64,000 nucleotides of DNA. Origin: Casuarius casuarius. Lineage: Eukaryota; Chordata; Aves; Casuariiformes; Casuariidae. The translations under genes and the position numbers were made by a program. This document shows, piece by piece, positions 1 through 37,800 of this stretch. Every line of letters starts with the position of its first letter. The first letter of the stretch is position 1. The DNA lies in contig PTFA01000340.1 in assembly GCA_003342895.1 (NCBI GenBank), positions 820,665 to 884,664 of the forward strand. The letters run 5' to 3'. The notes beneath the pieces are model-generated. The model saw nothing but the letters and a program-made list of their open reading frames with translations, searched no databases and had not been told where the DNA came from.

Positions 1-2066
1 GTAAGGGATCAGACTAAGTTTTCGGAGGAAGGCGGTAGGACGCGGGGTGGCTCACCTTGCAAAACTGAGTACAAGGCGGACCAGAGGGGAAGGTTTCATC
101 ACACAAGTGAGGCCATGAGCCCTGCCTGCTGCCAGGGGAGCACTGCCTGGCTGTGCTGTGATGCCCTGCTGAAGGCACAAATCCGAGGGCAGTGCAAGGG
201 CCTGCCTTCGCANGCGGCGGCAAGGGCGGCAAGAGCAGCTGCTCCCGAGACTTAGCAGCCTGGCTCATGGCACAGAAGGGAAGTAGTGTAGAAAGCAGCA
301 GCACACACATGCAGTGACACCAAAATCACGTGAGCAGCACTTGGCAGAGCTCTGCTGAAACTGATACAGGGCAAAGCTAAAGCTTCAGAAGCAAAAGCAC
401 AGGGAGGGCGACAGGCAGCAAAGAGTCTCAGCAGCACTTGGGGAATGTGATACTCAATTCCTTCGTATTATAATAAAATTAACCAGGAAGGCAGCTGAAG
501 CTGGTAGCAAAAGAGTAAATCACTTTTAGTACCGGTGAAACCATTTTTGCTGCGGTGGAGATCAGAGAGTGTGGTGACAGGAAAATATCAGGCATGGCCT
601 GGAGCTATGGTCAGGGTGGTGACGTTTTTGTCAAATGCTTGTACCGAAAGCATTGCCTAGCTGGTGCTAGGGTACAACAGCAGCTTACAATTGCTTCCTT
701 ATAAATGTCATTTTTCCAGCTCCCCAGGGCTCCTTCCCGCTGCCCAAGGCACGTGAGCAGAGCCTTCCGGCTGTCAGAGGGATGGCTTCTTACTCCTCTT
801 CCTGATTTTGTCCTTGGAGCTCTTCCTGCACCTGCTAAAACACACATGGCACTGTACCCTGCGCGCTCACCCTGCGATGGCTCCGGCTTCGTCCATGGAG
901 GTGTCCAGCCCAGCCACGGCGGATGTGGCCAGCCAGCCAGTTCCTGGCAACTAGCTGGTAGCAAGATGCTTGGTCAGGGAGCTGCCTCGACAAGCGCTTG
1001 CTCATCTGGCCGTGCACAGATGCTGCCACGTCCTCTGGAGGGTTTGACAGGAATTGTGTTTGTTTAGTTGCCAGGAAAAAGAAAAAAAAGAACTTCCTTC
1101 CCTCCTTCTGAGTAAGTCTCTGATAATTAACATTTTTAACATCTCTCAGGCTATAGGAGTTGTCTTGGACTGTGATACCAACTGGCAGAATCTGTGCATG
1201 TTCCCGGGACATTGGGGAGGTGGAAGGGAGGAGTTGGTGGCAGCGTGTGCAAGCGGCTGAGCATATGCCCTTTCAGGCTCCGCCCTGAAAAGGCATAGGG
1301 AGACACCAGAAAAGATTTTTGTCTTGTTTTGCAAAGCAAAGATTTTTGCCTTTGGGGTGTACTGGCAGGAGAGGCACTCCTCTCCCTGTTGTCCTTGATG
1401 CCGCTGCCCTACCTGGTCCCTACCCCCTGCCTGAGGGCTGGCTCTGCCCTGCAGCCTTGAAGACCTCCAGCTGCAGGGGTAACCTAGGCTTTGCCACCAC
1501 GGTCTTCCTGATACTCATCACAGCCAGCCAGCCCCACTTCTGAGGCTGTGGGCACTTGGGACTTCTCAGAAGAAATGGGCTTCGTCAGTGAAACAAGGTC
1601 AGAAATGCCTGTGGGATTCATGCTGTGAATGCTTTTTAGGGAAGGTTTTAGCCTTGGGGTTTATCTAGTGGCCTTTGAGTGCTTACACATACTAACTGTG
1701 TTTGTAATCAGAAAATCTGCTTTTATTCAAAGGAAATACCTCTGTGCATTTTAACAGAGGAGGTATAAAAGGGATTCGGAGTTTGAGTAACAACCGGGAG
1801 CTCTACAGTCAAAGTGTAAAGCACCAAATAGCCACCCATGCTCCTGTGAGGCAGGCAACAACCTGCGGCTGGTTGTCCCTGTCCTGGGGCTAAGACCCCC
1901 AGGCACACAGTGCTGTTACTCTTATCTCAAATGTCCCGGCCCCTCAAATCACCCCCAGATGTTGGTCTGGGTGTGGGAAGCAGATCCCTCCACATCGTGA
2001 CCACCCACCAGGGGTGGCGCAGGGCCCCGGCTGTACGCTCATGAGCGCCGCTGAACCGCGGGGATG

Positions 2067-2114
2067 CTGGCATCACCCTCCAGGCTGATACTGGCATCAC
2101 CCCCCAGGCTGATA
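2067..2114. repeat. Short tandem duplication (2 x 24 bp)
   Basis: Two adjacent 24-bp copies of CTGGCATCACCCYCCAGGC followed by TGATA, differing at one base. Confidence 0.85.
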
Positions 2115-3161
2115 CCTAGTCTAAGGATCAGCTGCTGGAGACACTTTGCACTTCAACTTCGCACACTGAATAAGCAGCGGGAGGACAACTGAACAAGGTG
2201 AGGACTCCCCTAATCCCCAAAGCCTTCTTGCATCTCCAAAGAAAGGAGGCAGCCCATAACACAGGAAAGTGCACCAGCGGCAAGTTGGCCTCAGCCGCAG
2301 AGGGGCTGAGTGCTAGTGAGGCTGGTGTGGGAGGGAGGGGAGGCTTCTCTAAGACAGAGCATGAAGCTAGTGGAGGTGTGATCATTTAGANCCAAGCTCA
2401 TGGCTAGCGGACCTGTGGTTTTCTTTCATGTCTTATTTGTAACTCTGTGTAGATGTTTCTGGGTTGGGTGTGATAGAAGAGCACAGGTTTTTAGTCCCTC
2501 TGCCCATATATTATTCCAGATTTTTAGTCTCTCTACTCATATATCATTCTTACCAAAAAAATAAATTATCAGGCAGTTCCTTTCTCAGGGTAGAGCAACC
2601 CTGAGAACCGGCATACTCAAGACGCTAACATGTTCTCCAGGCACTCGCCCAAAAGAGCAGCCGAGCACGTGTCCGCAGTACCAGAACGGGCAGCTGAAAC
2701 TGCAGGGCTCGGAAGAAGCAGTGTTGTCCACTGAGCAGCAAAAGCCAGGAAAGCTCCTTAGCACGCAGCAGGATCAAAGTGGCACACTTGAATCTGTAGG
2801 TCCTATAGGACTGAGCTGAACTACCACCTCTGGTCACCATCGGGCTAGTTTTGCNCCCACCCAAAGCTGCCCAGATGAGGACAAAGCCTATACCGTTCTG
2901 CAGGAAGGCAGATGGCCGCTTCCTTGCAAATATTTCCAGCAACAACTGCTAGAGGAGATCAACCAGGTTTTTCACCTGTAGCTCGGAGCTTGTGGCAGCC
3001 CCACATTAATCGAGAGTTTAACGTAAAGTAAGTAACACAGATTTGCAATAGCTAGGAAGGAAGACATTCAAAATGGCCTGTTAATAGCAGTGAGTTACCG
3101 AGGTTGTCATGCCCTGTGTGACATGGGTGACCCGCGGGTTTTCCATCTTCCTCTCCTTCTT

Positions 3162-3167
3162 TTTATT
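3162..3167 (-). promoter_or_regulatory. Candidate polyadenylation signal for gene A
   Basis: AATAAA on the minus strand about 1.36 kb past the gene A stop, the nearest canonical one I found. If gene A has a further tail exon it would lie between here and 4528. Confidence 0.3.
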
Positions 3168-4527
3168 CCTGTGATCTGCAAATGAAAGAGAGGCCAAATA
3201 GCTCTTGCCACTTAGGTTTCCAAAAACAGTCAGTCATTTTAGACAGCACCTCACACTTCATGAGACCTGTGAAGGAAATCTGGCTGCAGAGAGAAATGGA
3301 AATTGGAGCCTTTTGCTTGGGCTAAGCTCCTCTGTTTCTAAGACCAGGAGATCCTTATTTTCAAGGGACAGCAGAGAGGAGAGCAAGAATGAAGCAGGGA
3401 GAATGGACTTCTGTCTATGGATACCCTCCTCGCTTGCAAGCCGCCTCAACTAGTTACGTGGCTCTGAACTGGCTCCCTTTGGGTTTACTCATTCTGTGCA
3501 GTGTTTCCTATATTTCAGGCTCTGAAATGCACAGAGATGCACACTGTGGAATTATGATATTCTCCTCTCAATCTTCTGGAGGGCCCTCCTTCCCCTGAGA
3601 AGCTATGGGTGATGCCAAGGGCTAAGCCAGCACTTTCAGGAAGCCCAAAAGTTGTACAAGGTGCATGTTACTCCTCAGGCTGGTAGCAAGGCAGGCACTG
3701 CCACAGATCCCCTGAGTGAGGACGAGAGCAGAAGGGGGTCTTCTGAAAGGACTGGGATGTCCCCTAACACTGAGACACCACATAGCCTGCNCAGGGGAAA
3801 ACAAATGCAACTGCTAATCAGGTGAGTCAGGGGATTTTTGTGGAAAGGCTACAGAAACCAGAAACTTCCAAAGAAGCAGCTGAAGAAACATGTGAGACGT
3901 GTGCAAAAGCCTCCCTGATCTCTTCCCTCCCACCCCAGAGCTTGAGGCTTGGGAAATGAACGGAATGAACTTCATCTGCAAGAACCAGTTTTTACTGGAA
4001 CAACAGGTCAGCTGCCCTGCTGAGTCTTTACACATTCCCAGACACATTCTTGGCTGTTCAAAGCAGTTTTTTTCACTTTCAAACCCTGCTGCAGCTGAGG
4101 TTTTCAGAACAGAGTATGGGTATTGCCAGGGAAAGCAACAGCAGGATGCTCTGGAGAAGTAACTCACTTTCCCAAAACTCCTACCTGAGCATCCGTGGGC
4201 AAAGCAAAGGTGTTGGCAAGGACCNGCAGATAGAGACCAGTGCCCTACTGTGCCTTTCCTGAAAGGCTGGACATCAAACTACCATCAGTGCTGGGTCCTC
4301 AGCTGCTTTAGACAGTTCCTCTCTCAGCAGAGTCAAAGGCCTTTAAAAAAAGCTGGCTTTTTTTTTTTTTTTTAACTGAAAGCACCTTTCCTCAAGATCC
4401 ACTGCCAGGCTCTGATCACTGCCGGCATGGCTGGAGCAGGGGAGGGATGACAGCTGAGAATAAGCATCTGGCAAGTGGTCAGAGCAGTTANTTATGATCA
4501 CACAATCACTGGCAGGAAACCATGGGG

Positions 4528-4625
4528 CTACGTACGCCATAGGAAGACCAGCAGTATAAACAGGGCTACCACAGCAGGAAGGACGAAGCTGGCTGTCAGA
4601 TCAATGGGCTCCGAGCAGCCTCGCT
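4528..4625 (-). CDS. Gene A exon: transmembrane segment 5 and stop
   Basis: The acceptor is TTCTGCAG. It encodes ERGCSEPIDL and a hydrophobic stretch (ASFVLPAVVALFILLVFLW), then RT and a TAG stop. Gene B at the same point has a GTAAGT donor (T before it) leading to a tail exon. Gene A has GTACGT at that spot (C before it, phase 1), so it may splice onward to a tail exon I could not find. As read, the protein ends directly after the fifth membrane pass. Confidence 0.78.
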
Positions 4626-7600
4626 CTGCAGAAGAGAAAGTGAAAATGGTCAGTGTTTGGCCCTTTGGCCAACATCCCTCTTGAACGCTTACGTGACCTG
4701 AATTTAATCCAGAGCCTTCCTATGAAACAGAGAGGAGAATCCCTGAGCCACCACCACCACCAAAGACTGAGTTAACTACAAGAAACCTTAGATTTGCCTT
4801 CTTGCAGGGCCAGCTGTGCAAAGCTACCTAAGGATGCAGTGAGGCTCAGGCCCGCCAATCCCTCCCAGGTATCCCACCGCTCCCCACAACCAAGGCGAGC
4901 AAGGGAAGGGGCAGTATAAACCTGGGCCACCCCTTACCATTGAGCTGTTGGATATTTTGGAGCAGGAGGCTGGTGAACAGCACGAGGACGATCACTGTGG
5001 TGGGGGTTGCAGTGTCCAGGATGACACAGTGCCCTAGAAGAGGAGAAAACTACTGACAGATGAGACAGAAATGCATAAGGGATACAGGCTCACACTCAGA
5101 GGAGATGAGCTTTGGTGGGCAGGCAAGCAAGCCATGGCCAGTATCTCCAGATGTGTGCCATTAGATGCGTGCTAGGTCTCTCCCGGCAGTGAAAAATTGC
5201 AGAGTATGCTCTTAGACTCTTAACAGGCCTTCTCTGTCAGGGGTTTAGATCCTAAACAGTAACTCACATTTTTTGGTCCTGAAATGGATGAGAGCTGCTG
5301 GTCTGCACGACAGTGTTGCTGTGAGGAGGGCAGTTGTTATTATGGTAGCAAAGAGGAAAAGCCCGAGCAATATGAAGGCAACAGAAGGACCTGTGGGAGA
5401 CAGAATTGAACCAGAACTTAAGATTGGAATGCTTTTTCTGGCTGAGGCAGTGGTCTGAGAAAAAGACGGGGAAAGTTTGCTTCTCTTGCAAGAAACTACT
5501 GTGCATGATCTGTGGCCCAGTGCCGCAGAGCAGAATTGGCCTGGGCATCTGGAACAGGACTGCGCACTGCAGTGAAGAAATGTCCTATGACCTAGGGACG
5601 TGGCTGCCAGCAGTGCTGGCTCAGCACTGCTGGCCAGGGAACTATATCCTACATCTGATGACAATTTTATCCTGGGAGCTGATTGCAAGCAGCATTTTTT
5701 ATAAAAGATACCCTACGGGTAACATGCAGAAAGCACCTTTCTTTCAACAGAGAACAGGGAGAAGGCTCAAGTGTTTCAGGTTTTTTTTGTTTGTCTTAAT
5801 ATCTGTTTGCAGCTTATTATTTAGCACCCGTGACATGACAACTAGGTAGCCTCAGCCTAGAAGAGGGAAGAACTGGCTAAGAAGTACTTGGATATGCTGG
5901 CCAGTTGCAGAACAGCTGGGCTTCATGTTATTCATCCAAGGTCCCTAAAGGACTGGTGGAAGTGGTTTCAAAGCCACTTTTTCATCTTTGAGAAGCCCTA
6001 GAGAAGGGATAGTAGTACTTGAAGAGTGCAAAAAGACCAATGTAGCACTCAGGTTTTAAAAGAGCAGAGAGGGAGGAGTCTGGAGACAGAGCAGTAAACT
6101 CTAACTTCAGTTTCTCTAAATCAAATACCACTAGATCAAAGATGCTGCCTTGAAAACAAAGATGAGAAACCAAAGCACTAAAACCCAAATCAGATTAAGT
6201 GAATGAGTCACAGCGAGAGCCTACCTTCTTGCTGCATCCAGATGATAGAGGTGGCGAGCAGAAGAAGAGAGGAGAAACACAACAGTCCTTGGATGGACAC
6301 AGTCATCCATCTCTCCACTTTCTTTCCTAGGAAAAAGGCAAACGCACCCTAGTGAGAAATCATAACCATACAAGCAGCAGGAATGGTGCAGCCTGCAAAG
6401 GGAAGGTAAACACGAAGCACGGGTTTTCTTTGTGCAGAATTTAATTCTTACGAGATTAAAAACAAACAAACAAACAAAAAAAACAAAGAGAAAACCTGAT
6501 GAACTTCAGAGTGCTTTGTCTGATTTCAAAGCAGCCACAAGAAATCAGCCAGATTTGAGATCGTTCCATTCTGAACCAGACATCAATTCCATCTAGTAAG
6601 ACAGACTTTACAACGCATCTGCCCAGTTTCTGCCACCTACAATAACCTGACAAGTGCTGGATTTTCTCTGGAGACCCCTTTCATTGGGAAAGGTCCACAT
6701 GGTACAAGTTCTTGTCACATACAGCAGGCATGGAGAACCCCTCCGAAGAGACTATCCCCAAAGGCAAGAACTAACACCACAGCCTTCAAATGTCATCGAC
6801 ATAATATTAACAGACAAATACACATGGGACAACTTTCCTGCTAGCTGGAGGACTTCCCCTCCATTCTCCAGATGGCCTCTGCTGTTCTTGGGGCTGTTCT
6901 TGGTGGGCAGAAGAGCATATTAGCAGGTTACAAAGAATGCGTGTGGGAGGATTTGCAGGTGGCTATGTCTTTAGGTTTGTTTCTGTTGACCAATATGCAT
7001 GTTGTTACTGAAGTACCCATTTTAACCTGTAAGCTTCTTGGCATGTGGATCTGCAGCAGTATGTCAAGTCATGACCAGTGTGCTTGGTCACTGAAACTCG
7101 TGCTCTTCAGCACAGCACGTGATCTTTAGTCAGTTCTAAGTACCTTCCAGTGGGAAGGCTCTTCCCATGTAGGCTTTGATAATCTCCAAGTCCTGCGCTT
7201 TTATTTCTTCCTAAGAATGTCCAAGGGACAGGAGAGGAATAGGGACAGGATTTGTATATTTGGTAATGTGGTATTTTCAAGTGGCTCCACTTTCCAAAAA
7301 GCCATTTGGGGTGAACTGTTTCTAGGAAGTTTTATTTCCTTTGCAAGCTGCAGAAACATAAGAAGCAATGCATGAACTGAGCACATTTCTTCACACTACT
7401 GAAGCATCACAGACTGAAGTAGGAAGACAGGAGGGAAGGGGTTTGGCTAAGGCTTTCTGCCATCATCTGTCTGGTTCCTCTGCAGAGAGAAAAGGGTTTA
7501 GTTTGGGGAATTCAGGTGCCGCCCTGCATCCCGGGGCCCAGGCCTGACACTTACCAAGTCCTTGCTCCTCTGGCCAACAGAGCAGGACAGCGAAGCCTGT

Positions 7601-10600
7601 CGCAGAGACTGCAGCAAACAGCAGCACGAGAACAGCCATTCTCTGAGCATGGTGCAGAGGGGGCAGGAGACCTGCAATGAAGGGAGCAGTGAAATCCCAC
7701 TGCTGAGAATGGCTTAGAAACACAGAGAGGCTGTGGGTATCCCAGGAAACTGCAAAATGCTGGGAAACCTGTGGGAAGAGTCCTGGGTCTTCCTTGCTTG
7801 GGAATGCCCATGAGTGACAGTCACCCTACTGGGCAGGGCAGCCATTCCGAGAAAGCACCNGCAGCCGAAACTTGCTGCCCAGACAGAGAGGAGGCAGACC
7901 AGGCCTGGTGTGGCATTCGAATACACAAAGCAGATCGGAGATGGCTGGCAGAGTCATGGGTGCAAGCTAGCTGACATTTAACACACCAACCAACTGCCAG
8001 GTAGCAACACTAACCCTCCAGAGTCAGGTTCAGCACTGCTTCCTTCCAGCTGATCTCATTGCTGACATTGCAGGAGTAGGAGCCACAGTCCGCCTTCTCC
8101 CCTTTCCCAATCTGCAGCACAGTGATGTTTTCAGAGAGCTGATAGCACCTTTCTGGGGGGAGAGGACGTCCCTCCTTCTTCCAGGAGATGGCATCCACTC
8201 TTCCTTTTGGCAGCACGCAGCGCAACTCAATGGGTGAACCTACCAGGCTTGAACTGCACTGGAGCTCAGGCTGGGGCACAGGCTCTGGAAAAGAGATCAC
8301 AGAGTGGCAATAGTCCCAGGAGTGTGAGGCTTCCTTTGTATTACCTTTCTTCATAACTCAGATATCTAAAATTAGCCCTTATTGAGCTGCAAAAGTGCCC
8401 AGCCCTGTGGGGAGTTAGCAGGCCCTTCCCTTCTTGCTTATGCCCCGGCTGGCTCAGTGCCCCAGTCAAGCCTGAAGGGAGAGAAGACACTGCAGCAGCA
8501 GGGCAACATCTGCCGAGTTCACAGCTGCAAAGTGAACATCCCAGTCCTTGCTGCCGAGCCACCCCAGGATGGACACTACCAGCCCACACGGCCCTCGGAG
8601 ATCAGGCATGGCAGTCTGGGCCCAGGGATATGGACCCAGAAGAGCTGCGAGTTGCAGCTGCACTGAAAAGCGATGACAGGGACTTCCCAGAAACTGTCTG
8701 CCTGGGGTGTCCTGGGAGGAAAGGGCTGTTCCCACACAGGCAGTGAGAGCCGGGAAGAAGAGGGTGGGTCAAAGATGCAATGTGGCACTGCCCAGCTGCC
8801 TGCATTTAAACTGGTCAAACTCCTCATGGGCCAAAGCACGCAGAAGCAAGCCTTGCATGCTGGATACCCTTGCCATGTGCAAAAGGAGGGCTGACTCACT
8901 GCCTCAGCTAATGCGTAGGTACCTGCACCAGACAGGGCTGCTATTAACTACATTTGGACTTCCACTTAACAGCAACAGCATGCTCCTTATGTCCTTCTTC
9001 CCTGGGCACGATGTCCTACATTCGGTACGCTCACATAGCAATGCTGAGCTCTACGAAAGGGCAATTCAAAACAAGCTTAGCTCTCATTTCTGTTTATCTT
9101 TCAGGTAAGTTCAGAGACAGAGAAAGGTGAAACTTGTATGAAGGAAGAAGTCTACAGGCACCCAAGACCTGCAGTTACCCTGGGGAACTTCTGTGTGTGT
9201 CTGCGGGGAGCCACAGGAGAGCCAACACTCAGCCACGGCTATATGACAGATGCACCCTCCTGTGAAGAGTGTCTGTAAGTCTGGCTAACCTCACCATGCC
9301 TGATCCTGAAGAGATTAGGATGGCAATTTGTAAGGCAGCAGCTTATCCTGTGATTGCCTACCGAGGAGCTTCTGGTCCCAGTCCTGAGGGACCGGCCATG
9401 GCCTGTGCCAGCAGGGCAGCTCCTCACTTCCTCAAATTATTAGTGTGACAATCATTTTGCTTATCAAATTTGAGCAGAAATAACCTCTCTGAGGGGATTT
9501 TTATAACATGTACTTTCCTGTTCATGATGAAATAATTAGATAAAAACAGAGCAGAAGATGAGAACCCAAGCTGGGCCAGAATGTGCCCCCCCCCATCTCA
9601 TTCACCCCGGGATGAAGGCACCATGCACCCCTATTTCTCCAAAAGGAAACTCAGCCCACTGCCTGTCTGAGTCTCTAAACACCCTCTAGCATTTCCTAGC
9701 AGTGCTTTTAGGGTCTCCAGTCTGTGTCCTTCAAGGCGGTGATGAAACCAGAAAGTCCTCCTCTATTCTGGTTACTGTTCCGTATATGCGGACTCTTCTG
9801 TCATACCGACTGTCAAATCTTTGTCCACGAAAACCATCTTCTCAACACGTTTGACTTACTGATAACTTCAAGTAAAGTCATCCTAGCTTTATCCTGCTTC
9901 AGATCAACTGTTGCTTTATAGACCCCACTGTCTATCTCTTGCAGCTTTTGCAAGAGAAGGGAGCCATTCTCTGGATAGAAAATCACTCTGCCTTGGTAAG
10001 CTGGGTAGATAGTTGGAGACTGTGAATCTGCATAGTACTGCAGGATGAATTCAGGAGTGGTATTTCTTATGTATTCCCACTCAGTGAAGCTTATGTTCTT
10101 GATATCTGGTGCATACAACAGCACAGAGGATCCTTCAGCTACAAATCTTCTTTCTGTGATTTCCACTGCTACGGAAGTCCACTGAAAAATCAAAAAGAGA
10201 CCTGGAGAGAGGAGAGATGCCAGAGAAGGATGAGTTAGTGGTGAAGCAAAAGCCAAAGGGCAATTTAAACTGTTTGCACAACTTTTTTTCTTTTTTTTTT
10301 TTGAACAAGATCCCAACCGTCTCCTGAAGCACACTGTGCCACATGTCTGACTTCCTCCTGTTTTTTGAGAAAAACTGTAAGATGTTTGTGCACATGTTAT
10401 GTAGACCCTTGTTAGCTGGTTAAGATGATTCCTTGCCCTTTGGAATGAAAACAGTGGGAATCTTAGTCCCTTAGGATTTTTCTGCACATCAGAAGCTGCA
10501 AACAGGGACTGTGCAGCTTCCCCCCTGCATGTTGAGTCGTCCCCTCAGCATCAGAAAGGAACTGCCTTGCTTGGAAACCAAGCTGTGAAATGCGCTTTGT

Positions 10601-11727
10601 TGAGACTGCTTAGACCTGGCTGCTGAATTACCGGCCTCTGAGAGCTCACCTTTCTGAACATTGTGAAACCTATACTCATATTCAGCTTATGCCTCACCAA
10701 GCTCTTAGCAAAAGTTAAGTACGGCAAATCTAGTGCCCCTCACTTTGGTACCCAGGGACTACAGAGGTCTGTGGAAAGTGCTAAATCTGTACATACTGAC
10801 ACACTTCTGGCACTTCTGAGTCACACAGGCAAGTGTGCCTCAGGCACGTGAGCTGCTTTTAATATTCAGAGAAATCAGAAAAAGGCTCTTATATAAGGGC
10901 ATTTGTCTTGAAAATGTTTTCTATTTTCCGCAAAAGAACAGATGGGAAAATGAAGCTAATGTGGGGAGCATTCTGCGAGCATGACCCTGAAGCACAGCCT
11001 TGGCTGGACCAGACGGAGGCACGGATATCCTGCTGCAGAACGGCTGGCATAAAAGGCCTCAGCAAGCTAAAAGTCACATCAACCAGCTCCAGCCCCCAAA
11101 CCTGCCTGAACTATCATTCTGGAGCTGCTTTTAGCCCATTTAAAAGGTTAGACTTGTTGCTAAAGAGGTACCGAAAGGAAACCTCTGGTCTGAGCATGGA
11201 GGAAAGATGAAGGAGAGGAGGGTCAGAGACATTCACAGGAGGGTACCAGAGGATACATCATGGTCGGAGCAGAGAAGGAAACTGTGGTGGCCTTGGAGAG
11301 ACTCCCAGGAAAGCAATCTTTAGGCATGCAATAGAGGACCACTGCCTCGTAAGAGGTGGCAGTAATATCCAGGTACTGTGATGCTGAAGCATTTGAGGCC
11401 ACTGGGAGGGAGGCACCTGCCCTGAGCAGCCTGCCACACTGTGACACTCAGCCAGGAAGCTCGGGATGGCTCCTGGGGCTCATGTCTTCAGCGAGACTGC
11501 CACGGCCCGGAGAAGTGATGCGAGGGGAGCACAGAAATGCTGGAAGCGCGTGCTCTCAAACTCCCCGGGGGCCGGAAGAGCGGGAGGGCTGCTCTGCAGC
11601 ACCTGCTGTGCAGCACAGTCTGAACGAGGGACAGGTGAGGTGCACCCAGCGTGCCAGCCCCTCTCTGAACCGGGGCGCCAGCCCGGTACTCACAGCCTGC
11701 GACAGCCGAGCGGAGAGGCATCGGCAT
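4528..11727 (-). CDS. Gene A: two-Ig-domain, five-transmembrane receptor (393 aa, 8 coding exons)
   Basis: Spliced model, exons in transcript order: 11727-11694, 10201-9860, 8284-8015, 7671-7555, 6326-6225, 5390-5268, 5033-4938, 4625-4528. The total is 1182 nt, an open frame of 393 codons plus TAG, and every intron is phase 1. Residues 1 to about 20 form a signal peptide, 12-125 the IgV-like exon, 126-215 the IgC2-like exon, and 216-393 five exons with one hydrophobic segment each. The V domain lacks the usual B- and F-strand cysteines, as in CD2/SLAM-family V domains, but keeps the Trp and the DSGVY motif. The C2 domain ends in a DCGSYSC motif followed by N-x-ISW, as in SLAM-type C2 domains. 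The expected topology is Ig domains outside, five passes and a very short cytosolic end. Gene B is its paralogue. The topology resembles CD47, but the two-Ig ectodomain does not. The function is unknown; a leukocyte surface recognition protein is my inference. Confidence 0.85.
4938..5033 (-). CDS. Gene A exon: transmembrane segment 4
   Basis: 96 nt, phase 1-1, acceptor CTTCTAG and donor GTAAGG. The hydrophobic stretch TTVIVLVLFTSLLL is bounded by WHCVILD and QNIQQLNG. The gene B counterpart is 93 nt (one codon shorter) and shares the SLL/FLI-x-NI end. Confidence 0.82.
5268..5390 (-). CDS. Gene A exon: transmembrane segment 3
   Basis: 123 nt, phase 1-1, acceptor TCCCACAG and donor GTGAGT. It encodes GPSVAFILLGLFLFATII, continuing hydrophobic to TATLSC, and then a polar stretch with LIHFRTKK. 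Gene B has the same exon length, with GPSIAFILP at the start and LIHLKSKTG at the end. Confidence 0.85.
6225..6326 (-). CDS. Gene A exon: transmembrane segment 2
   Basis: 102 nt, phase 1-1, acceptor TTCCTAG and donor GTAGGC. A basic start (GKKVERW) leads into a hydrophobic stretch (SIQGLLCFSSLLLLATSII) and ends in WMQQEG. Gene B has a 102-nt exon with the same W-x-x-W start, SGLVCISS core and WMREEG end, so the two are clearly paralogous. Confidence 0.85.
7555..7671 (-). CDS. Gene A exon: transmembrane segment 1
   Basis: 117 nt, phase 1-1, acceptor ATTGCAG and donor GTAAGT. It encodes a short linker and a hydrophobic stretch (MAVLVLLFAAVSATGFAVLL, residues about 227-246) followed by CWPEEQ. 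The gene B equivalent is also 117 nt. In single-pass SLAM proteins this would be the only membrane segment. Here four more hydrophobic exons follow in phase. Confidence 0.85.
8015..8284 (-). CDS. Gene A exon: IgC2-like domain
   Basis: 270 nt, phase 1-1, acceptor TTTTCCAG and donor GTTAGT. It encodes a C2-set domain with B-strand cysteine (ELRC), C-strand Trp (ISWKKEG) and F-strand DCGSYSC, followed by NVSNEISW. Extra cysteines (LQC, ERC, DCG) leave room for a second disulfide, as SLAM-family C2 domains have. The exon has exactly the same length as its counterpart in gene B and shares the WKK-PLPP and DCGSYSCN signatures with it. Confidence 0.9.
9860..10201 (-). CDS. Gene A exon: IgV-like domain
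   Basis: 342 nt, phase 1 at both ends, acceptor CTCTCCAG and donor GTAAGT. It encodes the end of the signal peptide and a V-set domain of about 100 residues. The B strand reads SSVLL with no cysteine, the C-strand Trp is in EWEY, GRVIFYPENGSLLL covers the D-E strands, and DSGVY marks the F strand, again with no cysteine. Loss of the canonical disulfide is typical of CD2/SLAM/HEPACAM-type V domains. Three N-glycosylation sequons are visible (NIS, NTT, NGS). The homologous exon in gene B is 345 nt. Confidence 0.9.
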
Positions 11728-20526: not shown

Positions 20527-20591
20527 TTACCCGTGTTTGTCCAGCCAGCTGGAGTCATGTTCCTCTTTCTGCCATCCCTGAGTTGTGTGAT
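20527..20591 (-). CDS. Gene B exon: cytoplasmic tail and stop
   Basis: The acceptor TCTTGCAG at phase 1 continues the frame of TM5 for 20 codons to a TAA. The tail is polar and partly acidic (QGWQKEEHDSSWLDKHG). No ITIM/ITSM consensus is visible. The phase fit to the TM5 donor supports it, but without transcript data a different last exon is possible. Confidence 0.62.
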
Positions 20592-23500
20592 CTGCAAGAC
20601 AACAAGTCTGTTCCCAGGCATTAGTAAAAAGAGTATGAGAGGCACCAGGCACACAGTATAGGATGTTGTTTTGGGGGATGGTGTCTGAAGCTCACTGGGA
20701 AAGGGAAATGGTAACCGGAGAGGCCTTTGGGTCCTGAGGTCTTAACAAAGGCCGAACAAATGAGTTTTAAATAATTCACATTGTCACTTGATTATGTGGG
20801 GAGAGAGGGATACTACGTTACTGAACAGCAGGCTCTCAGAAGTTCAAGGAAATTAAGGAGCAGGGACACTTACAGCGCAGGAAGATTGCGAGGATTGGGA
20901 GGGCGGACACCGCAGCTGTGCTAACCGCGAGGGTGGTCACATCCACAAACTCCGTGCAACCTTGTTCTGTTGTTCAAACAGACAAAATGACGGCACGAAG
21001 CTCAGCCCAAACCCAAACCAGAAAGAGAGAAATAGAAAGCTAAACTGTCCATGTCAAAAAACGCACACATAATGACCATCAAAGGTGATCAAAACTAGAT
21101 GTCCTTTCGCAAAAGTTTCAAAGGAGCACATGACAAATGGGGAATTTTCCCTGGGAGCCTTCTTTCAGTCCCCTGAAAGCCCCACTCTGGGAAATTTTTC
21201 GGAGGGAGCAGATATAATTCTGAATGGTAGATTCAAAGAGATGTAAGGAGTGTGTACATCATGGGTGAGTTTTAGCCTCAGTATGACAAATCCTTTAGGG
21301 CTTGCCAGACCTCGGTGGTCTAAATGCAGGCCCCTAGATAATCTCTTCTCACCGTGGCGATGGTAGATATTCTTTATCAGGAAGCTGGTAGTCATCACCA
21401 CTGAAACCACCCCTCCGGGAGCAGCATAGCCCATCGTGCGCTGTACTGATGAATGAAAGAAGACAACATGGCGTTACCGTGCATTTTTAGGCACATGCAG
21501 CAGATGTAGAGCTGGCCTGGCCCATGGTCCATGGGGAGATGTACCCGCTTGTGATTTGCAGCTGACTTTTTCACTGCTCCAAAGCTCAGCTATGCTTTTT
21601 GTGATATAAAGCTGTCAATAAGACTGCGTTTTGGGCACTTTCTAGTGATCTTACAGAGCTTCAGGACAGGATGAATTACAGCAGAAGGAAAAATAAAGTT
21701 TTCATTAAAAAAATTGTGTGCGAGATTTTTGGCAAAATAAAAACCCCATTGGCCAGTTTTAACTCCATCCCTGCCATCCTCAGTAGAACAGCTCACCTGT
21801 TTTGCTTTTGAGATGGATGAGTTTTTCAGGCTGGAACGTTACGGTGGCAGAGACCAGGAATGTTACCACAACCACATACGCAAGGAGGATCTCGGGCAGT
21901 ATGAAGGCAATAGATGGGCCTGAAAGAAAACAGCACAAGGCTCAATACCAGCTCTGTATTTGCCCTATTTACCACCTCCATGATTTTGTAGATGTCAGTC
22001 ATATCCCTTTCCCACCATCTCCTTTCCAAACGGAAGAGTCCCTGTCTTTTCAGACTCTCTTAGCAAGCAGTCGCTCTATCCCTTGATTATTTTAGATGTT
22101 CTTCTGCAATTCCCTCTGTTTCAAGTACCTAGGAAAGACCCATGTGCCCCACTTGTAAAGGGGGATAACTGTATTAATTGCACAGACAGGTATGTAACCA
22201 ATATGGTCCAGGCCCCTGTTACAAGCTGAGATCACCCATACGCGGCTGGAGGAGGTGCATGTTGCCTGGGGCTGGGCAGCGTGCAGCTCCGTTCTGCATG
22301 TTTAGTTGTGGGACCTCCCCTCTCTTGGGCATTACCTTCCGTTCGGACACCCACAAGGCTCTAATTCTCCCAGGAGGCCTTTACCCCGTACATTTTTTTA
22401 CAGCAGGGATTGCTTTTGCATGCTGCAACCTGCATGGGGCAAAGGAGTCAGGGCTGGGGTCTGCAGAGCACCACAACACAACCACCCCCAGCCCACCTCC
22501 TACCTTCCTCTCGCATCCAGAGGATCCCAGCGGTGCTTGCCAGGACAGAGGAGATGCACACCAGCCCACTGGTGTAGACACTGAGCCATCGCCACAGCTC
22601 TCCCCCTAAACATGCAGAGCGGTGCTGGAGTGACATCCATGACACGTGTGACAACCTGCCCCTGCCGCCCACTGCCCACAGTGAGATGCAACCCATTTCC
22701 CCCAGATGCCACAGGGTAGCTGGGATGTTTGTTGGGGACTGGCCCAGGCGATGTGGGTCTGAGAGGAGATCTGCCCCTTGGGGACAGGAGCGGGGCCCAG
22801 GCTGGATGCCCCAGTGACACCAGGCACCTGTTCAGGTGCTCACAGCCACCAACAGTACCCATGTCCTGACTCTGCACCTTCACATGGCCCCGTGCTGGCC
22901 AGGGCCCAGGACTCTCCAGCGTGTGGAGCTGGAAAGGGCTCTGTACCCCATCCTACAAGAGGTCTTTCCACTCCTCGTCCACCTCCTAGGCCAACACACA
23001 GGCTGTGACCAGGGTGGCCCCGCTCAGCGTGCCACCCCGATCCCCCGGCAGCCAAAACACTGATGGAGACAGCCAAGATGCTGATTTTCTCCATCAGTCC
23101 CTCAGCAGCCGTTTGCCTGCCTCCCTGCAGCTGGCTACACCGGGGCAGGTTGTGGCCAAGAGCTGGCTCCCTCCTGAGAGTTTATCACCCTGCAGCTGTC
23201 AAACTGAAAAGTCCCGGTGCATGGCTGGGATAAGACCAGTGCTGTCTCATTAGGGCACAAGCACCCAACGGTCTGGACATGTCGTCGCCTCTGACTGTGC
23301 AAGCAGGGGAGCCATAGATTAGCAGGAGCGACTGGGGAGGCTCTCGGCTGGTGTAATCCTGCTCTGTTTTGTGCTGTGGACTTGGCATTGGCACAGACAT
23401 AGGGGAAATGTGTCCAGCTGACAAGAAGGGGCTGATTAAATATGTGCTTATTTGGATAGGTTTTAGTACATATGCCTGTATCACTATTTCTCCCTTTGCT

Positions 23501-26362
23501 CCTATAATTCCTCCAGTGTATTAAAATGGAGGGTTGTAATACAGCTGACTATCAGTTTTTCCCCACAGGAGAATCAGTTTTTGCACCCTCCCTCCCAAGG
23601 GAAACATTTTCAGGGCCTTCCATTGCAGACTCACTTATTCTTTGCTTTTCTGATTGACAGACGGGAAAAATTAAGCCCCATCCCGAGGTGGCAGCAAAGG
23701 CAACAGCAACCACTGCAATCCTCAGTACATCTTGTAAGGCCGGGGAGAGACCTGGAAAAAATCCAGAGAAGCTAAGACTCAGACCACCATAATGCGCCAT
23801 GGGGCTCCTCTGTCACTTGGGACAGACTTGCTTTATTTTCCATCTGGTGGCCAAATTAGTGCTTGCTGTTGCAGACGCTGGTCCATGAAATGTCCAGCCT
23901 GTGACAGGTGGTGCCACATGTACCTTGGTCACTATCCCCAGGGACATGTCCTGCCCACCATCGCCCTGGCCATGGGGGCAGTGACAGTCTGGCCAGGCCA
24001 CAGGACCTTCTTCAAGAGGGAACAGCCGGGTTCCTGTTGCCCATCCTGCCCAGGCTGGACTGCACCCTGCAGCCAGGCAGAAGTGGTGGGACATAGGGAA
24101 ATGTTGCTGGTGGGAGATGGGAAGATGTCATGTGGGGCAGTGGAGGCCAGAAAGAAGACCCTAGACAGCCAGGCTGCCTTGTTGGCAGCGCTGTGCCAGG
24201 CAGCCACTGTAAGGCTGTACCCTCAAGAAAAGGCTGGGAATTGCTGCCAGTCATCCTACAACGGAGGCACTGGAGCTCCTGTCAATGGCCCAGTGGGTGA
24301 GCACAACGTCATGGGAGGGCTAGCCAAGCTTTGGGGGACAGAGGCAGAGAGATGGAGTCAGATCACCCAGCAAACACTGGGGAGGGATGGAGAGCAGAAA
24401 GAGCAGTGGGAGCAGAAGAGTGGGGTCTCTTTGACTTTTCCTGGGCAGCTTGTGGGAAGCAGCAGGTTTCTGCTGGCAATTTTAGCCACGCAGGTCATGC
24501 CACAAGCCTCAGGTCAGGAGCCAACACCAAGCAGCGATCACCTGCAATGGTCACGTTCAGGGAGGCTTCCTGCCAGCTTATCCCATTGCTGGCGTTGCAG
24601 GAGTAGGAGCCACAGTCCGACTTCTTCACCTTCCTCAGGTACAAAACACTGATGCTGCTGGACATATAGAAACCTCTGTCTGGGGGAAGGGGCTGCCCAT
24701 CCTTCTTCCAGGTGATGGTGTCCACTCTGCCCTCAGCCACATCACAGAGCACCTCGACAGTGGACTGTGCCACTAGGGCACTGCTCCGGAGCTGAGGGTG
24801 AGACACGGGCTCTGGAAAGGAGACAGAAACACCAACACTTCTGTCAGACAGGACCTGGAGCATCTGCAATGGGGAGCTGGTGGGAATCAGGGGCACAATT
24901 CTCTCTGCAGCATCCTTGAGTCTGTAACAGTGCAAATGCAGGTACCTTTCCATGGGCAGTCCTACAGGCAGGTATCTGGCACAGACACAGCATCATATAG
25001 GGCTGCTCTGCTTTCTGTTTTTTCTTTTTTCTTAGAAGTAGTAGGGCTGAACCAGTTTTTTGCATCTGGGTTAATATAGGGCATTCTCATTCTCACAAGA
25101 CGAGAAAAGAAAGAGGAAAAGGATGCAGTCCTCAGTCAGATTTCTGAGCAGTGGAATGGACACATGAGTGGTGAAAGGTGGTGAGGACATTATGGCAGCA
25201 AGTACAAAGAAAGGAAAATGCCAGAGCAAATTAACCTGCAAAGTGAAGTGGCAAGAGTGATATTATGGAGGAACCTCTGTGTTATTTAAAATGTACTCTT
25301 ATCACCATGATAGTGGCTGGCACCTCTGAAGAGCAAACAGCCCATCAGTCAGCCTGGGGGCTCAGCTGCCGTTATGGTCAGAGGGGGAGATTTTTTGTGA
25401 CTTCTCCAGAAAGCCCACACTGATGGACATAGCTCCATCAGCTCTCCTAAGTCCCCCTTGCAAAGGATGCCTGAGGTACACTCTGCAGGTGAGGCAGCAG
25501 ACACACAGCATCCTGCCAGTCCTTTAGTCCCCTGCACTGGAAGTAGAAAAAAAGAGAGCAAATGGTCTTTCCAGGATGGAGTCCTGCCCTCTGTCACATC
25601 CACAGGCCCCAGAAGGTCTCTCAGGGCAGCACCACAGAGTTTCCTCCCTGGCAAAGGTTTGGAGCCTCTTCACCAGCTCTCCCTGGTGCATGGCAGGTTG
25701 AAAGAAGGAAACTCTGCATGATTGGTACTCTAGACTTAGCTCAAATCCCTTCACCCAAAATCTTGGCCTGGCCAATGGTCCATGCACATTCAAAAAATAC
25801 CACTGCTCTGCTTGTATCCATCACCTCACTCTTCCCTCCCATACCTGCCACTTACTGAGGACTTCCAGCTGGATTTTGAGGCTCTCCCTTTCTCCCAGGT
25901 TGACGGTCACTTTGTAGATCCCACTGTCAGTTTCCTGTACATCTTCCAACAAGAGAGATCCATTGGATGGATGGAAAATGGCTCGATCGACATAAGGTGC
26001 ATGGATAGCTGGGCTGTGTGAGCCCCCGTAGTGCTGCAGGATGGAGCGGGACTCGGTGCCGTTGAGGTACTCCCACTGCACGGAGTATATGTGTGTGACA
26101 TTATCTGGCACGGGAAGCAGCACTGAGGATCCCACAGCAGCAGCTTTTCTTTCCAGAGGTCCTCCTGCTTCTGCAGCCCATTGCAAGGGCACCAAGAGCC
26201 CTAGATGGAAGAGGAAGAGAAGACAAGCCGGGAAGACAGAGCAAGTCAGCGTGGTTCGAGAGAGGCTGGCTGTGATACCCCCTGGGCCAAGGTTACTCAA
26301 GTGGACCATTTGGTCAGTGGGTGAAAACCTCTCACAAAGCCCTTACCATTGCTGCGTGCCAT
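20527..26362 (-). CDS. Gene B: two-Ig-domain, five-transmembrane receptor (407 aa, 9 coding exons)
   Basis: Spliced model, exons in transcript order: 26362-26347, 26200-25856, 24811-24542, 23751-23635, 22605-22504, 21919-21797, 21445-21353, 20966-20874, 20591-20527. The total is 1224 nt, an open frame of 407 codons plus TAA, and all introns are phase 1. IgV spans residues 6-120, IgC2 121-210, five hydrophobic exons 211-386, and a polar tail 387-407. Like gene A, its V domain has no B/F cysteines and its C2 domain ends DCGSYSC. It lies head-to-tail upstream of gene A on the same strand, and exon lengths match A exactly in C2 and TM1-TM3. The tail (QGWQKEEHDSSW) has no tyrosine signalling motif other than a junction Tyr. 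The function is unknown; the shared architecture with A shows it is a real, conserved protein type. Confidence 0.85.
20874..20966 (-). CDS. Gene B exon: transmembrane segment 5
   Basis: 93 nt, phase 1-1, acceptor GAACAACAG and donor GTAAGT. It encodes EQGCTEFVDV followed by the hydrophobic stretch AVSTAAVSALPILAIFL. The x-GC-E-x-D start is shared with gene A (RGCSEPID). Confidence 0.8.
21353..21445 (-). CDS. Gene B exon: transmembrane segment 4
   Basis: 93 nt, phase 1-1, acceptor ATTCATCAG and donor GTGAGA. It encodes VQRTMGYAAPGGVVSVVMTT followed by SFLIKNIYHRHG. It is less hydrophobic than the other segments, but length, phase and the SFL-I-x-NI end match gene A. Confidence 0.78.
21797..21919 (-). 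CDS. Gene B exon: transmembrane segment 3
   Basis: 123 nt, phase 1-1, acceptor TTCTTTCAG and donor GTGAGC. GPSIAFILPEILLAYVVVV continues hydrophobic to SATVTF and ends EKLIHLKSKTG. The GPS-AFIL start and LIH--K-K end are shared with gene A. Confidence 0.86.
22504..22605 (-). CDS. Gene B exon: transmembrane segment 2
   Basis: 102 nt, phase 1-1, acceptor TGTTTAG and donor GTAGGA. It encodes GELWRW, the hydrophobic stretch LSVYTSGLVCISSVLASTAG, and then ILWMREEG. It aligns closely with the gene A exon (SGLVCISS against QGLLCFSS, and the shared W-M-x-x-E-G end). Confidence 0.86.
23635..23751 (-). CDS. Gene B exon: transmembrane segment 1
   Basis: 117 nt, phase 1-1, acceptor TTTTCCAG and donor GTGAGT. 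The hydrophobic stretch LRIAVVAVAFAATSGWGLIF is followed by PVCQSEKQRI. Length and position match gene A exactly. Confidence 0.85.
24542..24811 (-). CDS. Gene B exon: IgC2-like domain
   Basis: 270 nt, phase 1-1, acceptor CCTTTCCAG and donor GTGATC. It starts KPVSHPQL at the junction and contains VEVLC (B-strand Cys), ITWKKDGQPLPP (C-strand Trp) and DCGSYSCNASNGISW. Relative to gene A it lacks the LQC and ERC cysteines, so the second disulfide is probably not conserved. Confidence 0.9.
25856..26200 (-). CDS. Gene B exon: IgV-like domain
   Basis: 345 nt, phase 1-1, acceptor CCATCTAG and donor GTAAGT. It encodes the end of the signal peptide and a V domain. SSVLLPV sits at the B strand without cysteine, VQWEYLNGT carries the C-strand Trp, FHPSNGSLLLEDVQ covers the D-E strands, and DSGIYKVTV marks the F strand, again without cysteine. 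Sequons NVT, NGT and NGS are present. It shares the ILQ-Y-x-S-x-SP pattern with gene A. Confidence 0.9.
26347..26362 (-). CDS. Gene B start exon (candidate, 16 nt)
   Basis: ATGGCACGCAGCAATG is followed by a GTAAGG donor at phase 1, with purine at -3 and G at +4. Joined to the V exon it gives MARSN then GLLVPLQWAAEA, a short but acceptable signal peptide. An in-frame stop lies 54 nt upstream. An acceptor-like CCTCTCTCAG just 5' suggests an upstream untranslated exon. The small exon size makes this the least certain part of gene B. Confidence 0.5.
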
Positions 26363-34863: not shown

Positions 34864-37800
34864 CTAGGTAAGTGCAAAGAAAACAGAAAAGATAAGAGCC
34901 TTCTCCAGAGGCTCTGTCAGGATCAGGCAGGGTATAGAGCTACTGACTTACAGTAGACATGGAGAAGCTGGCAGCAGTAGGAGCTGTGTAAAGCTGTGAT
35001 GGCTTTACATACAGATACATTATATGCACGGGTACACAGATTTGCGAGAGGGATGAGGAAAGNTTGGTTCCAGCTCTGTCTACATGAATGCAGAACTGGT
35101 GCAGCCTATCAAGTGCACATGACAGGTGCCCTGCTACTCCTCCCATGTATTTTGCCCATGGATCTCTCAGACAAGACCAGGTCCTGCCTCAGGCACAGCT
35201 TTCAGAGCAGACTAGAGAGATCTATGGACTCTGGAAACAAGGATAAAAACCTTTGCTGAAGTTTTGTTGTAGTTCCTGAGACAGAGAGTATACAGTGGGG
35301 AACGTAGCCTCCACCCTAGCTATTTTTGCTGGAAAAAATCACAAAGCCTTTTTTGCCTTCTTTGTATAGAAATTACTACAGGAGAAAGCTGGTAGGATCT
35401 ACAAGAGAGACTCTGTGGAGTATCTCAGTACTTCTGGGTCATCTGCNAGCACCATGGAGTCAACTCCTACGGATTCCCAGTGTTGGGCAGAGAAGTGACT
35501 TGAGCCATCTGACTGACGTCTCTCCCTTAGGTTTCTTTATCTCTTTCTCACTGCTTTATTCAAATTTATAAGATGTCAGCAGCATTTTTTCATGGGTAAA
35601 ACCCTGTGTGAGATGAGTCCCTAGGTCACCCACACCAACCCCTGAAGAAGTGCTGTTGCATAAATTTATGAAGCTAGGAAGCAAGGAAGGATGATTATCT
35701 GACATTTTCTCTCTGTTTAATCATTCTACCTTTTGTCTTGTTGCTGTTGGCCAAAGCTGGCTCCAGGCTTCTCAGCCATGAAGGTAAAATTCAGGTTGAC
35801 GCAGGCAAAGCCTGAAGCTTGAGGTCTGAATGGGAGGGAGGTGGAATGGAAGCGAGCAGCTCGAGTCNAGCTGGGGGAAGGGGCAGGTGCTTTTTAGCCT
35901 TCCCTTGGAATAATGAATTAACTTCCTAATTTTATATTCACAACCTGGTTCTTACAGTTCAGTACATCTTAAGCAAGCCAGCAGTTAGCAGTTACCCAGC
36001 TGCCTGTGTCAAAGTGCTTTTTTATTTTTTTCCTGTACCTCTTGTTGTCCAGTGATTCTTGTTTTCTTCTGTTGAACTGCACCTAGGAAAAGGAGACTTA
36101 CATTTTATTATTTGACAGACACACAAACAGTCTGTATCCTCCTATCTCCTAGTGCTAGAGAACTAGGATTACTCTATTGACACTTTCTCCAGGGTTGTAA
36201 TGTGGATTTTGCCTTTAGGATGGAGATTTCTGTAGCTACTTTCTCTAAGTACAAGGAAAATATCTACTTGGAACCGAAGAAATTTGTTTCTTGACAAATC
36301 CAACTGAAGGTACCCGCAGGGATGAAGGTTTTGAAGACATCACTGATGGAAGCTGTGGAGATACGTGTGTCTTCCTGGTTTATTTTAAAGTGGAAACATC
36401 CTCAGGTATTCTCTCCAACTGGAATTTTAAAGTAACTACAATAGTGTAGTCATAACTACACTTAGAGGATGCATTTTGGAGTGCATGAAATTGTACTTAT
36501 TTTATAGAATAGGTATATTGCAGTATCTTGATTCTGGTCTTAGCACCAAAACATATATGTTCTCCAGAAAACTGTTGTCACTGGGAGTGCAACAGACCCA
36601 TGCCATGCAGCTACTACGTTAAGCTGCATCACAGCCTTTAAACACAATCAGTGACTCTTGAAACTGAAGGAGGCAACACATTTCAGGGGACTCCTTATGG
36701 AAGGAATAATTTTGTAATGAAGAGCAGAACACAGGTCTCACCAGAACCTTCCACTAGCTTTATCCCCTAGAATAGGTCTGGAGGAGCTGGAGGCAGCAAC
36801 TTCAAAGCATAAAATGCAGGAGCAGATCCACTTACCCAGGTGCCATACGCAGCAGAAGAGCAGGAATAGCAGAAGGAAGGAGATTAAACAAGAAGAAACT
36901 CCAATTATGTAGGTAGAGATCTGGCTTGAAATTTCCTTTTTTGGGTCATTATGGTCTGACATTTGAAAGAAAATAGGTGGTGTGAGTGTTTTCTGAAGGA
37001 ATAGTTGTAGTCGTTGCAACACATTTTCCAGAGAACATGCCTTCTGAGTATAGTACTCTCCGTGTGACCAGAAAGCAATATAAGTAGATGGAGAGCAGCA
37101 CTGTGGATGCACAGGTTAAAGCAAATATTTAATTGCAAAAAGCCACCCACATCTACAACCCATCTATGAGTTTCTTTTCCTGCGCTAACTGATTGCACAT
37201 CTAAGCAGCTGTGTTGCCTCCGCTTTGGGCAGTGTGTGCCTTGTGGGCTGCACATGCTGTGCCGTGAGGGGGCTGCTGTAACTCCAAACCAGACACCACA
37301 GCCCTCTTCTCCCCTCCTGGAACTAGTCAAGAAAATATTCTGAGGAATACTTCCATCCTGAAGCAGGGAAAGCATTTTCCAGTCCTTCCCACAGAACACA
37401 GAGATGTTTAGTGCTATGTCTATAATGGTTTGGAGTGTACCATGGTCAGATACTGCCATGCAGATCGTAACATTTGCTTTGTATACAGAATGGCAGCTGA
37501 GTTGTGGAAGAGTCATCACTGCAAATGAAGCACTGTTTCACGCCTTGACACATGGCACTGATCCAGANGAAACCAAGGGAGGGTATTGGAAAATTACTGT
37601 ATACAAAGTCAGAACTATGTTGACCATGGAGAGTGTAAACCAGGCCAGGAAACAGCTGGAGAAATGGGGAAAAAACAACAGGCAAAGCCAGAAACAGAGA
37701 TGGGTTTAATACACGTCATCAAGACTGGGTGGCAACAGTGAATAAATAACGCAAACTCCGCCAGGTTACAGAAGGAGCCCATCCTGTCAGAGGAACCAAG

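Follow-up and report, generated by a model that had tools for sequence, protein, structure and literature searches.

What kind of protein carries two immunoglobulin (Ig) domains on five membrane segments, and does it belong with any family already named? The question is raised by gene A, which lies in a stretch of 64,000 nucleotides (hereafter the window) from the bird Casuarius casuarius (GenBank assembly GCA_003342895.1, contig PTFA01000340.1, positions 820,665 to 884,664 of the forward strand). A first-pass annotation had read there an IgV domain, an IgC2 domain and five successive phase-1 exons with one hydrophobic segment each; exon borders, phases and a hydropathy scan bear this out, and the IgV-IgC2-five-helix architecture is close to certain. 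The explanation that best accounts for the data, with a probability of roughly 0.6, combines this architecture with a role in adhesion or recognition, the Ig head being held on the helix bundle as it is in CD47. Taken by itself, a role at the cell surface in adhesion or recognition, argued from analogy, is somewhat probable. The gene is on the minus strand and spans 790-11727 (10.9 kb), rather than 4528-11727, and the completed model has 10 exons and 430 amino acids:

11694..11727, minus strand: exon 1, start codon (ATG) and start of the signal peptide; donor GTGAGT, phase 1 end; resembles the start of emu P0001
9860..10201, minus strand: exon 2, remainder of the signal peptide and IgV; AG/GT borders, phase 1-1, 342 bases; Pfam V-set 34.7 bits (cut-off 26)
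8015..8284, minus strand: exon 3, IgC2 with an extra cysteine (DCGSYSC); phase 1-1, 270 bases; Pfam Ig_3 38.8 bits (cut-off 30), I-set 38.1 (cut-off 23.7)
7555..7671, minus strand: exon 4, predicted helix 1; phase 1-1, 117 bases, hydropathy 2.59
6225..6326, minus strand: exon 5, predicted helix 2; phase 1-1, 102 bases, hydropathy 1.87
5268..5390, minus strand: exon 6, predicted helix 3; phase 1-1, 123 bases, hydropathy 2.53
4938..5033, minus strand: exon 7, predicted helix 4; phase 1-1, 96 bases, hydropathy 1.88
4536..4625, minus strand: exon 8, predicted helix 5 together with the loop cysteine (ERGCSE); phase 1-1, 90 bases, hydropathy 2.68, followed by donor GTACGT
3099..3175, minus strand: exon 9, predicted cytoplasmic tail; emu residues 391-419 matched at 79% identity (E 2.7e-5); AG/GT borders
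790..831, minus strand: exon 10, VQEELQGQNQEEE and stop; agrees with the C-terminus of emu P0001 except for one residue; tandem acceptor TAGCAG

Exons 2-8 are each preceded by AG and each begin in phase 1, and three Pfam families (V-set, I-set, Ig_3) are found over cut-off. Reconstructed by script, the first eight exons read through to a TAG reproduce an earlier model of 393 amino acids. The stop that this model placed right after the fifth segment does not hold, since the TAG sits inside a splice donor, directly after 4536 (CTATGGC/GTACGTAG), and is thus intronic. Orthologues continue beyond this point. The emu protein P0001 has 430 residues and shows, after helix 5, a basic stretch and then an acidic end; a search of the cassowary genome with it placed residues 391-419 at 3093-3179 of the window. 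Once the tail exons at 3099-3175 and 790-831 are included, the model is identical to P0001 at 397 of 430 positions, without a gap. Two predicted ostrich isoforms (P0004/P0005) are a single glutamine apart, the very residue that the tandem TAGCAG acceptor would add.

Is the membrane part what it appears to be? Topology was predicted, not measured, with a 19-residue hydropathy scan, which finds five hydrophobic segments after the Ig domains, one per exon. Counted together, lysine and arginine number 3, 0, 4 and 1 in loops 1 to 4 and 6 in the tail, and because these counts fit loops 1 and 3 and the tail being inside and the Ig part outside, we infer that the Ig domains face outwards and that the tail is cytoplasmic. 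Five segments are likewise seen in CD47, used as a control, and in 12 of a set of 17 family proteins that includes gene A.

The family is not confined to the cassowary. The gene A query retrieves 210 proteins at E<=1e-3, the best 120 of which are listed, in protein searches that detect only sequences sharing exact words with the query. The matches listed cover many bird orders, turtles, alligator and tuatara, so that the predicted relatives which the first annotation had proposed to seek in bird and reptile proteomes do exist; the closest among them are those of emu (93% identity over 99% of the 393-residue model), kiwi (83%) and rhea (78%). Such identity with emu, together with 210 matching proteins, makes gene A more than a product of chance. 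An alignment of 49 of the 120 listed members has a mean column identity of 39%, and the helix region aligns together with the Ig part. Furthermore, the cassowary has two paralogues with the five-helix plan: gene B, likewise inside the window, and gene E, on another contig (C270). Ig and helix exons measure 342/270/117/102/123/96/90 bases in A, 345/270/117/102/123/93/93 in B and 345/273/117/102/120/96/93 in E, all in phase 1. Gene B (20874-26200, minus strand) keeps an open frame from IgV to helix 5, percentages below being identities to pigeon P0246:

25856..26200, minus strand: gene B, IgV exon; 345 bases, 80%
24542..24811, minus strand: gene B, IgC2 exon; 270 bases, 70%
23635..23751, minus strand: gene B, predicted helix 1 exon; 117 bases, phase 1-1, 79%
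22504..22605, minus strand: gene B, predicted helix 2 exon; 102 bases, phase 1-1, 70%
21797..21919, minus strand: gene B, predicted helix 3 exon; 123 bases, phase 1-1, 75%
21353..21445, minus strand: gene B, predicted helix 4 exon; 93 bases, phase 1-1, 80%
20874..20966, minus strand: gene B, loop cysteine (EQGCTE) and predicted helix 5 exon; 93 bases, phase 1-1, 84%
1592901-1596915 of contig C270 (locus L009), minus strand: gene E, third five-helix gene, in the same genome

A likely tail exon of gene B is found near 20583 (HTTQGWQKEEHDSSWLDKHG, then a stop) and differs from the end of the pigeon tail. The helix 4 exon of gene E has a weak donor (GTCAGG), at which splicing is consistent with emu P0241. 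In emu, the orthologues of A and E are on contigs of identical size, 28048201. The gene E query finds 11 proteins, namely E-type proteins of emu, rhea and ostrich (five records), B-type proteins of pigeon and songbirds (four), and, as more distant relatives, one of platypus (33% over 79%) and one of a frog (30% over 49%). No placental or marsupial protein appears among the matches listed, an absence that searches by exact words do not prove.

In a rival reading, gene A encodes an ordinary receptor of the CD2/SLAM or CEACAM type, with a single pass, and the later hydrophobic exons are alternative ends, used one per transcript. Symmetric exons can indeed be skipped without a shift of frame, and predicted isoforms or models that lack helix exons exist (P0011, P0105, P0249), such as kiwi P0105, which terminates after the Ig domains at 233 amino acids. 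By contrast, the donors and acceptors of gene A exons 4-8 join in one frame without a stop, and all five helix exons have been retained in A, B and E. Also against alternative ends, three proteins known from the source 'lgn' only (P0043, P0092 and P0101, with longest contigs of 1957, 1611 and 2214 bases respectively) each have a frame of 431-436 amino acids that is unbroken through the helix region and the tail; P0043 and P0092 show five hydropathy segments and P0101 four. Since gene A spans 10.9 kb, contigs of 1.6-2.2 kb are presumably spliced transcripts. Transcripts ending after the first helix, the outcome that the first annotation had named as fatal to its proposal, are not seen as a rule, and alternative ends are highly improbable.

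We may then ask which known receptors the outer part resembles. Ig domain 1 is free of cysteine in 48 of the 49 aligned members. Domain 2 has the usual pair and an extra cysteine (the first of DCGSYSC in gene A) in all 49. A first domain lacking its disulfide is typical of the CD2 family and of CEACAMs as well, so that the trait is not exclusive to CD2/SLAM. In a PDB search with gene A, titin comes first (several domains summed), followed by CEACAM ectodomains (CEA at 1.9e-17, the CEACAM1-type biliary glycoprotein at 1.9e-14), with CD48 far lower; in a profile search SLAMF6 is found at 3e-9, and several other adhesion receptors score between CEACAMs. The emu gene E protein passes the cut-off of the Pfam family Receptor_2B4 (PF11465; 25.0 versus 21 bits), and 12 of 49 gene A-type members match this family at E<=1. 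To judge from the sequence, the gene A ectodomain would be CD2/SLAM- or CEACAM-like, with no finer assignment.

The anchor tells a different story. CD2/SLAM proteins are single-pass or anchored by glycosylphosphatidylinositol (GPI), and many have tails with a tyrosine switch motif (ITSM). Gene A and its kin share with CD244/2B4 and CD48 an IgV-IgC2 ectodomain, a first domain without canonical disulfide and, in emu gene E, the Receptor_2B4 match. They differ in having five predicted helices and no ITSM that we could find: in the 24 family tails examined, no SLAM-type switch (T-x-Y-x-x-V/I) is present, and a looser pattern matched only IKYQEA, in three gene E tails. Membership of CD2/SLAM was also considered on the anchor itself and set aside, a single transmembrane segment or GPI being replaced in gene A by five predicted segments. 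The same holds for CEACAMs, which are single-pass or GPI-anchored and have no five-helix part, even though their ectodomains are the best two-domain PDB matches after titin. A third comparison is offered by chicken chB6/Bu-1, which one account describes as a CD2/SLAM-like protein of birds and reptiles that has two Ig-like domains and lacks a clear counterpart in mammals (PMC11882424). Two Ig domains are thus found in both, but the same paper makes chB6 a type I membrane protein that has a CCC site for palmitoylation and a tail binding SH3 domains (PMC11882424).

To our knowledge, it is CD47 that stands out in the Ig superfamily for crossing the membrane five times and having its Ig head tethered, a build that matters for its role as a 'marker of self'. 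Two reviews report that Cys33 of its Ig domain is bonded to Cys263 of the membrane part (PMC10902115, PMC3564380), and according to one of them this bond is necessary for signalling (PMC10902115 / PMC3564380). Could gene A have a tether of this kind? A cysteine in the loop between helices 4 and 5 is present in 48 of 49 aligned members, the remaining one (tuatara) being gapped there. The extra cysteine of domain 2 stands five residues before the F-strand cysteine, a position that we take to be the EF turn of the Ig fold, at the membrane end of the membrane-proximal domain. Both cysteines are also found in the B, E and platypus proteins. In the predicted topology the helix 4-5 loop would be outside, near the extra cysteine. 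Gene B, pigeon P0246 and emu P0241 have no ectodomain cysteine besides the usual pair and the extra one. Among the 107 members with all landmarks (132 were examined), 15 have three ectodomain cysteines, 31 have five, 60 have four and one has seven. Parity fits a tether in the members with three or five. A disulfide joining the extra cysteine of domain 2 to that of the loop is a tentative proposal, with chances a little short of even.

If the preferred explanation is correct, this disulfide would fasten the Ig domain nearest the membrane to the helix bundle, and the CD2- or CEACAM-like first domain would bind a partner on the facing cell. By analogy with CD2, CD48, CD58 and the CEACAMs, the partner would most likely be another Ig protein, for example one of the apparently single-pass neighbours described below. 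As the tail has no recognisable signalling motif, signalling, if any, would pass through lateral partners of the helices; ligand presentation or a CD47-like lateral action would be expected rather than recruitment of SAP-type adaptors.

Several observations weigh against this explanation. In the scan of 17 proteins, P0007 shows four segments, the Dendrobates frog protein P0251 four and platypus P0249 three, in these last two behind a pair of Ig domains, and P0024 and P0050 show six. A crude hydropathy count over 128 database members, some of them short or partial records, finds five segments in 71 of them, four in another 39, fewer than four in 16 and six in 2. In the 60 members with four ectodomain cysteines, one would be left without a partner, or a disulfide internal to domain 2, which is as likely, would compete with the tether. 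The named ectodomain relatives found by PDB search are CEACAMs ahead of CD2/SLAM proteins, and gene A of the window has no Receptor_2B4 match in the Pfam scan. One might also imagine that the helices are the business end, in a scaffold or a channel- or transporter-like protein to which the Ig domains are auxiliary. The helix part belongs to no named family and its Pfam matches, to unrelated membrane proteins, are below cut-off, as this would allow; the helices, however, have few charged residues and are joined by short loops, and the ectodomain resembles that of adhesion receptors, which makes a transporter-like protein improbable.

The likeness to CD47 raises the further question of kinship. 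The CD47 gene of this genome (contig C382) devotes 348 bases to its IgV exon and 90/102/93/96/93 to its helix exons, all in phase 1-1, to be compared with 117/102/123/96/90 for the helix exons of gene A. An Ig head, five helices coded one per symmetric phase-1 exon (in A, B, E and this CD47), a short tail and a cysteine in the helix 4-5 loop are common to both. That cysteine is at the start of the fifth helix exon in CD47 and is the fourth residue of the corresponding exon in gene A. The difference is that CD47 has one IgV domain, of another IgV family, whereas gene A has two Ig domains. The two could descend from an ancestral Ig/five-helix gene, with the helix module inherited and a second Ig domain gained in the gene A lineage. 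The equal number of helices, the phase-1 symmetry of their exons, identical lengths for helix 2 (both 102) and helix 4 (both 96) and a cysteine conserved early in the helix 5 exon all agree with such a descent. Sequence tests, by contrast, go the other way. Aligned with hhalign, the helix regions of gene A and CD47 reach a probability of 0.1 on a scale of 100. When helix exons are compared as profiles, the like-with-like pairing (helix 1 with helix 1 and so on) comes 78/120 by raw score and 30/120 by Z, whereas the same test by Z of A against E puts it at 1/120. The CD47 transmembrane family (PF04549) is missing from the matches at E<=1 of both gene A and its helix part, is absent from the best 25 of 95 families for the 49 members and is not found for emu gene E either; the CD47-type IgV family (PF08204) is not listed for gene A or P0001 in the Pfam scans, and, against the helix profile, no PDB chain reaches E<=1. 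With a shared exon plan and negative results by hhalign, exon profiles, PF04549 and PDB, gene A appears to be built like CD47 without being a member of its family, and true kinship is rather unlikely. Ancient shared ancestry beyond detection and independent assembly are both possible.

Has this type of protein been seen before? The first-pass annotation had supposed an undescribed receptor or ligand type. This stands insofar as the IgV-IgC2-five-helix combination recurs and fits neither the single-pass or GPI plan of CD2/SLAM nor the single-Ig plan of CD47. It has to be qualified in that the genes are already annotated as predicted proteins, under 'uncharacterized' or borrowed names: those met in the gene A search include 2B4, CD48, HEPACAM-like, CEACAM, A33, hemicentin-2, VEGF receptor 2 and even a glycine N-acyltransferase. 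Literature searches for the family, for its relatives and for the names its members go by returned no description of an IgV-IgC2-five-helix protein, within a scope that leaves out most subscription journals, probably including work on the frog CD2 family, so that a prior description there is possible. More speculatively, Ig receptors on a five-helix base may come in two classes, CD47 and this family, the latter as old as tetrapods, with three bird paralogues and lost from placental and marsupial mammals, its 2B4/CEACAM-like double-Ig head pinned by a disulfide to the base and acting at the surface as ligand or co-receptor of leukocyte Ig receptors whose genes lie beside it; taken whole, this picture is doubtful. 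If it were true, a five-helix base under an Ig head would be either a reusable design or a very old one, and a natural comparison for work on CD47. Bird and reptile immunology would then gain an extra set of surface molecules, now hidden under the borrowed names 2B4, CD48 or HEPACAM-like.

Gene A has other Ig genes as neighbours. Genes C and D (about 36700-38800 and 53400-55300, minus strand) have nearly identical IgV exons, with V-set over cut-off. Downstream of each there is a hydrophobic stretch (FCCVWHLGKW and FCYAWHRGEW, respectively), and because each gene has an IgV exon and then one such stretch, both are apparently single-pass. They are candidate partners of the gene A protein. The window reaches the end of its contig. 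Upstream of the window, a related gene of the same genome (contig C395, about 805400-807900, plus strand, locus L020) has an IgV domain, an IgC2 domain and one hydrophobic stretch; it matches PF11465 at 25.9 bits (cut-off 21), the best stretch being within the second domain.

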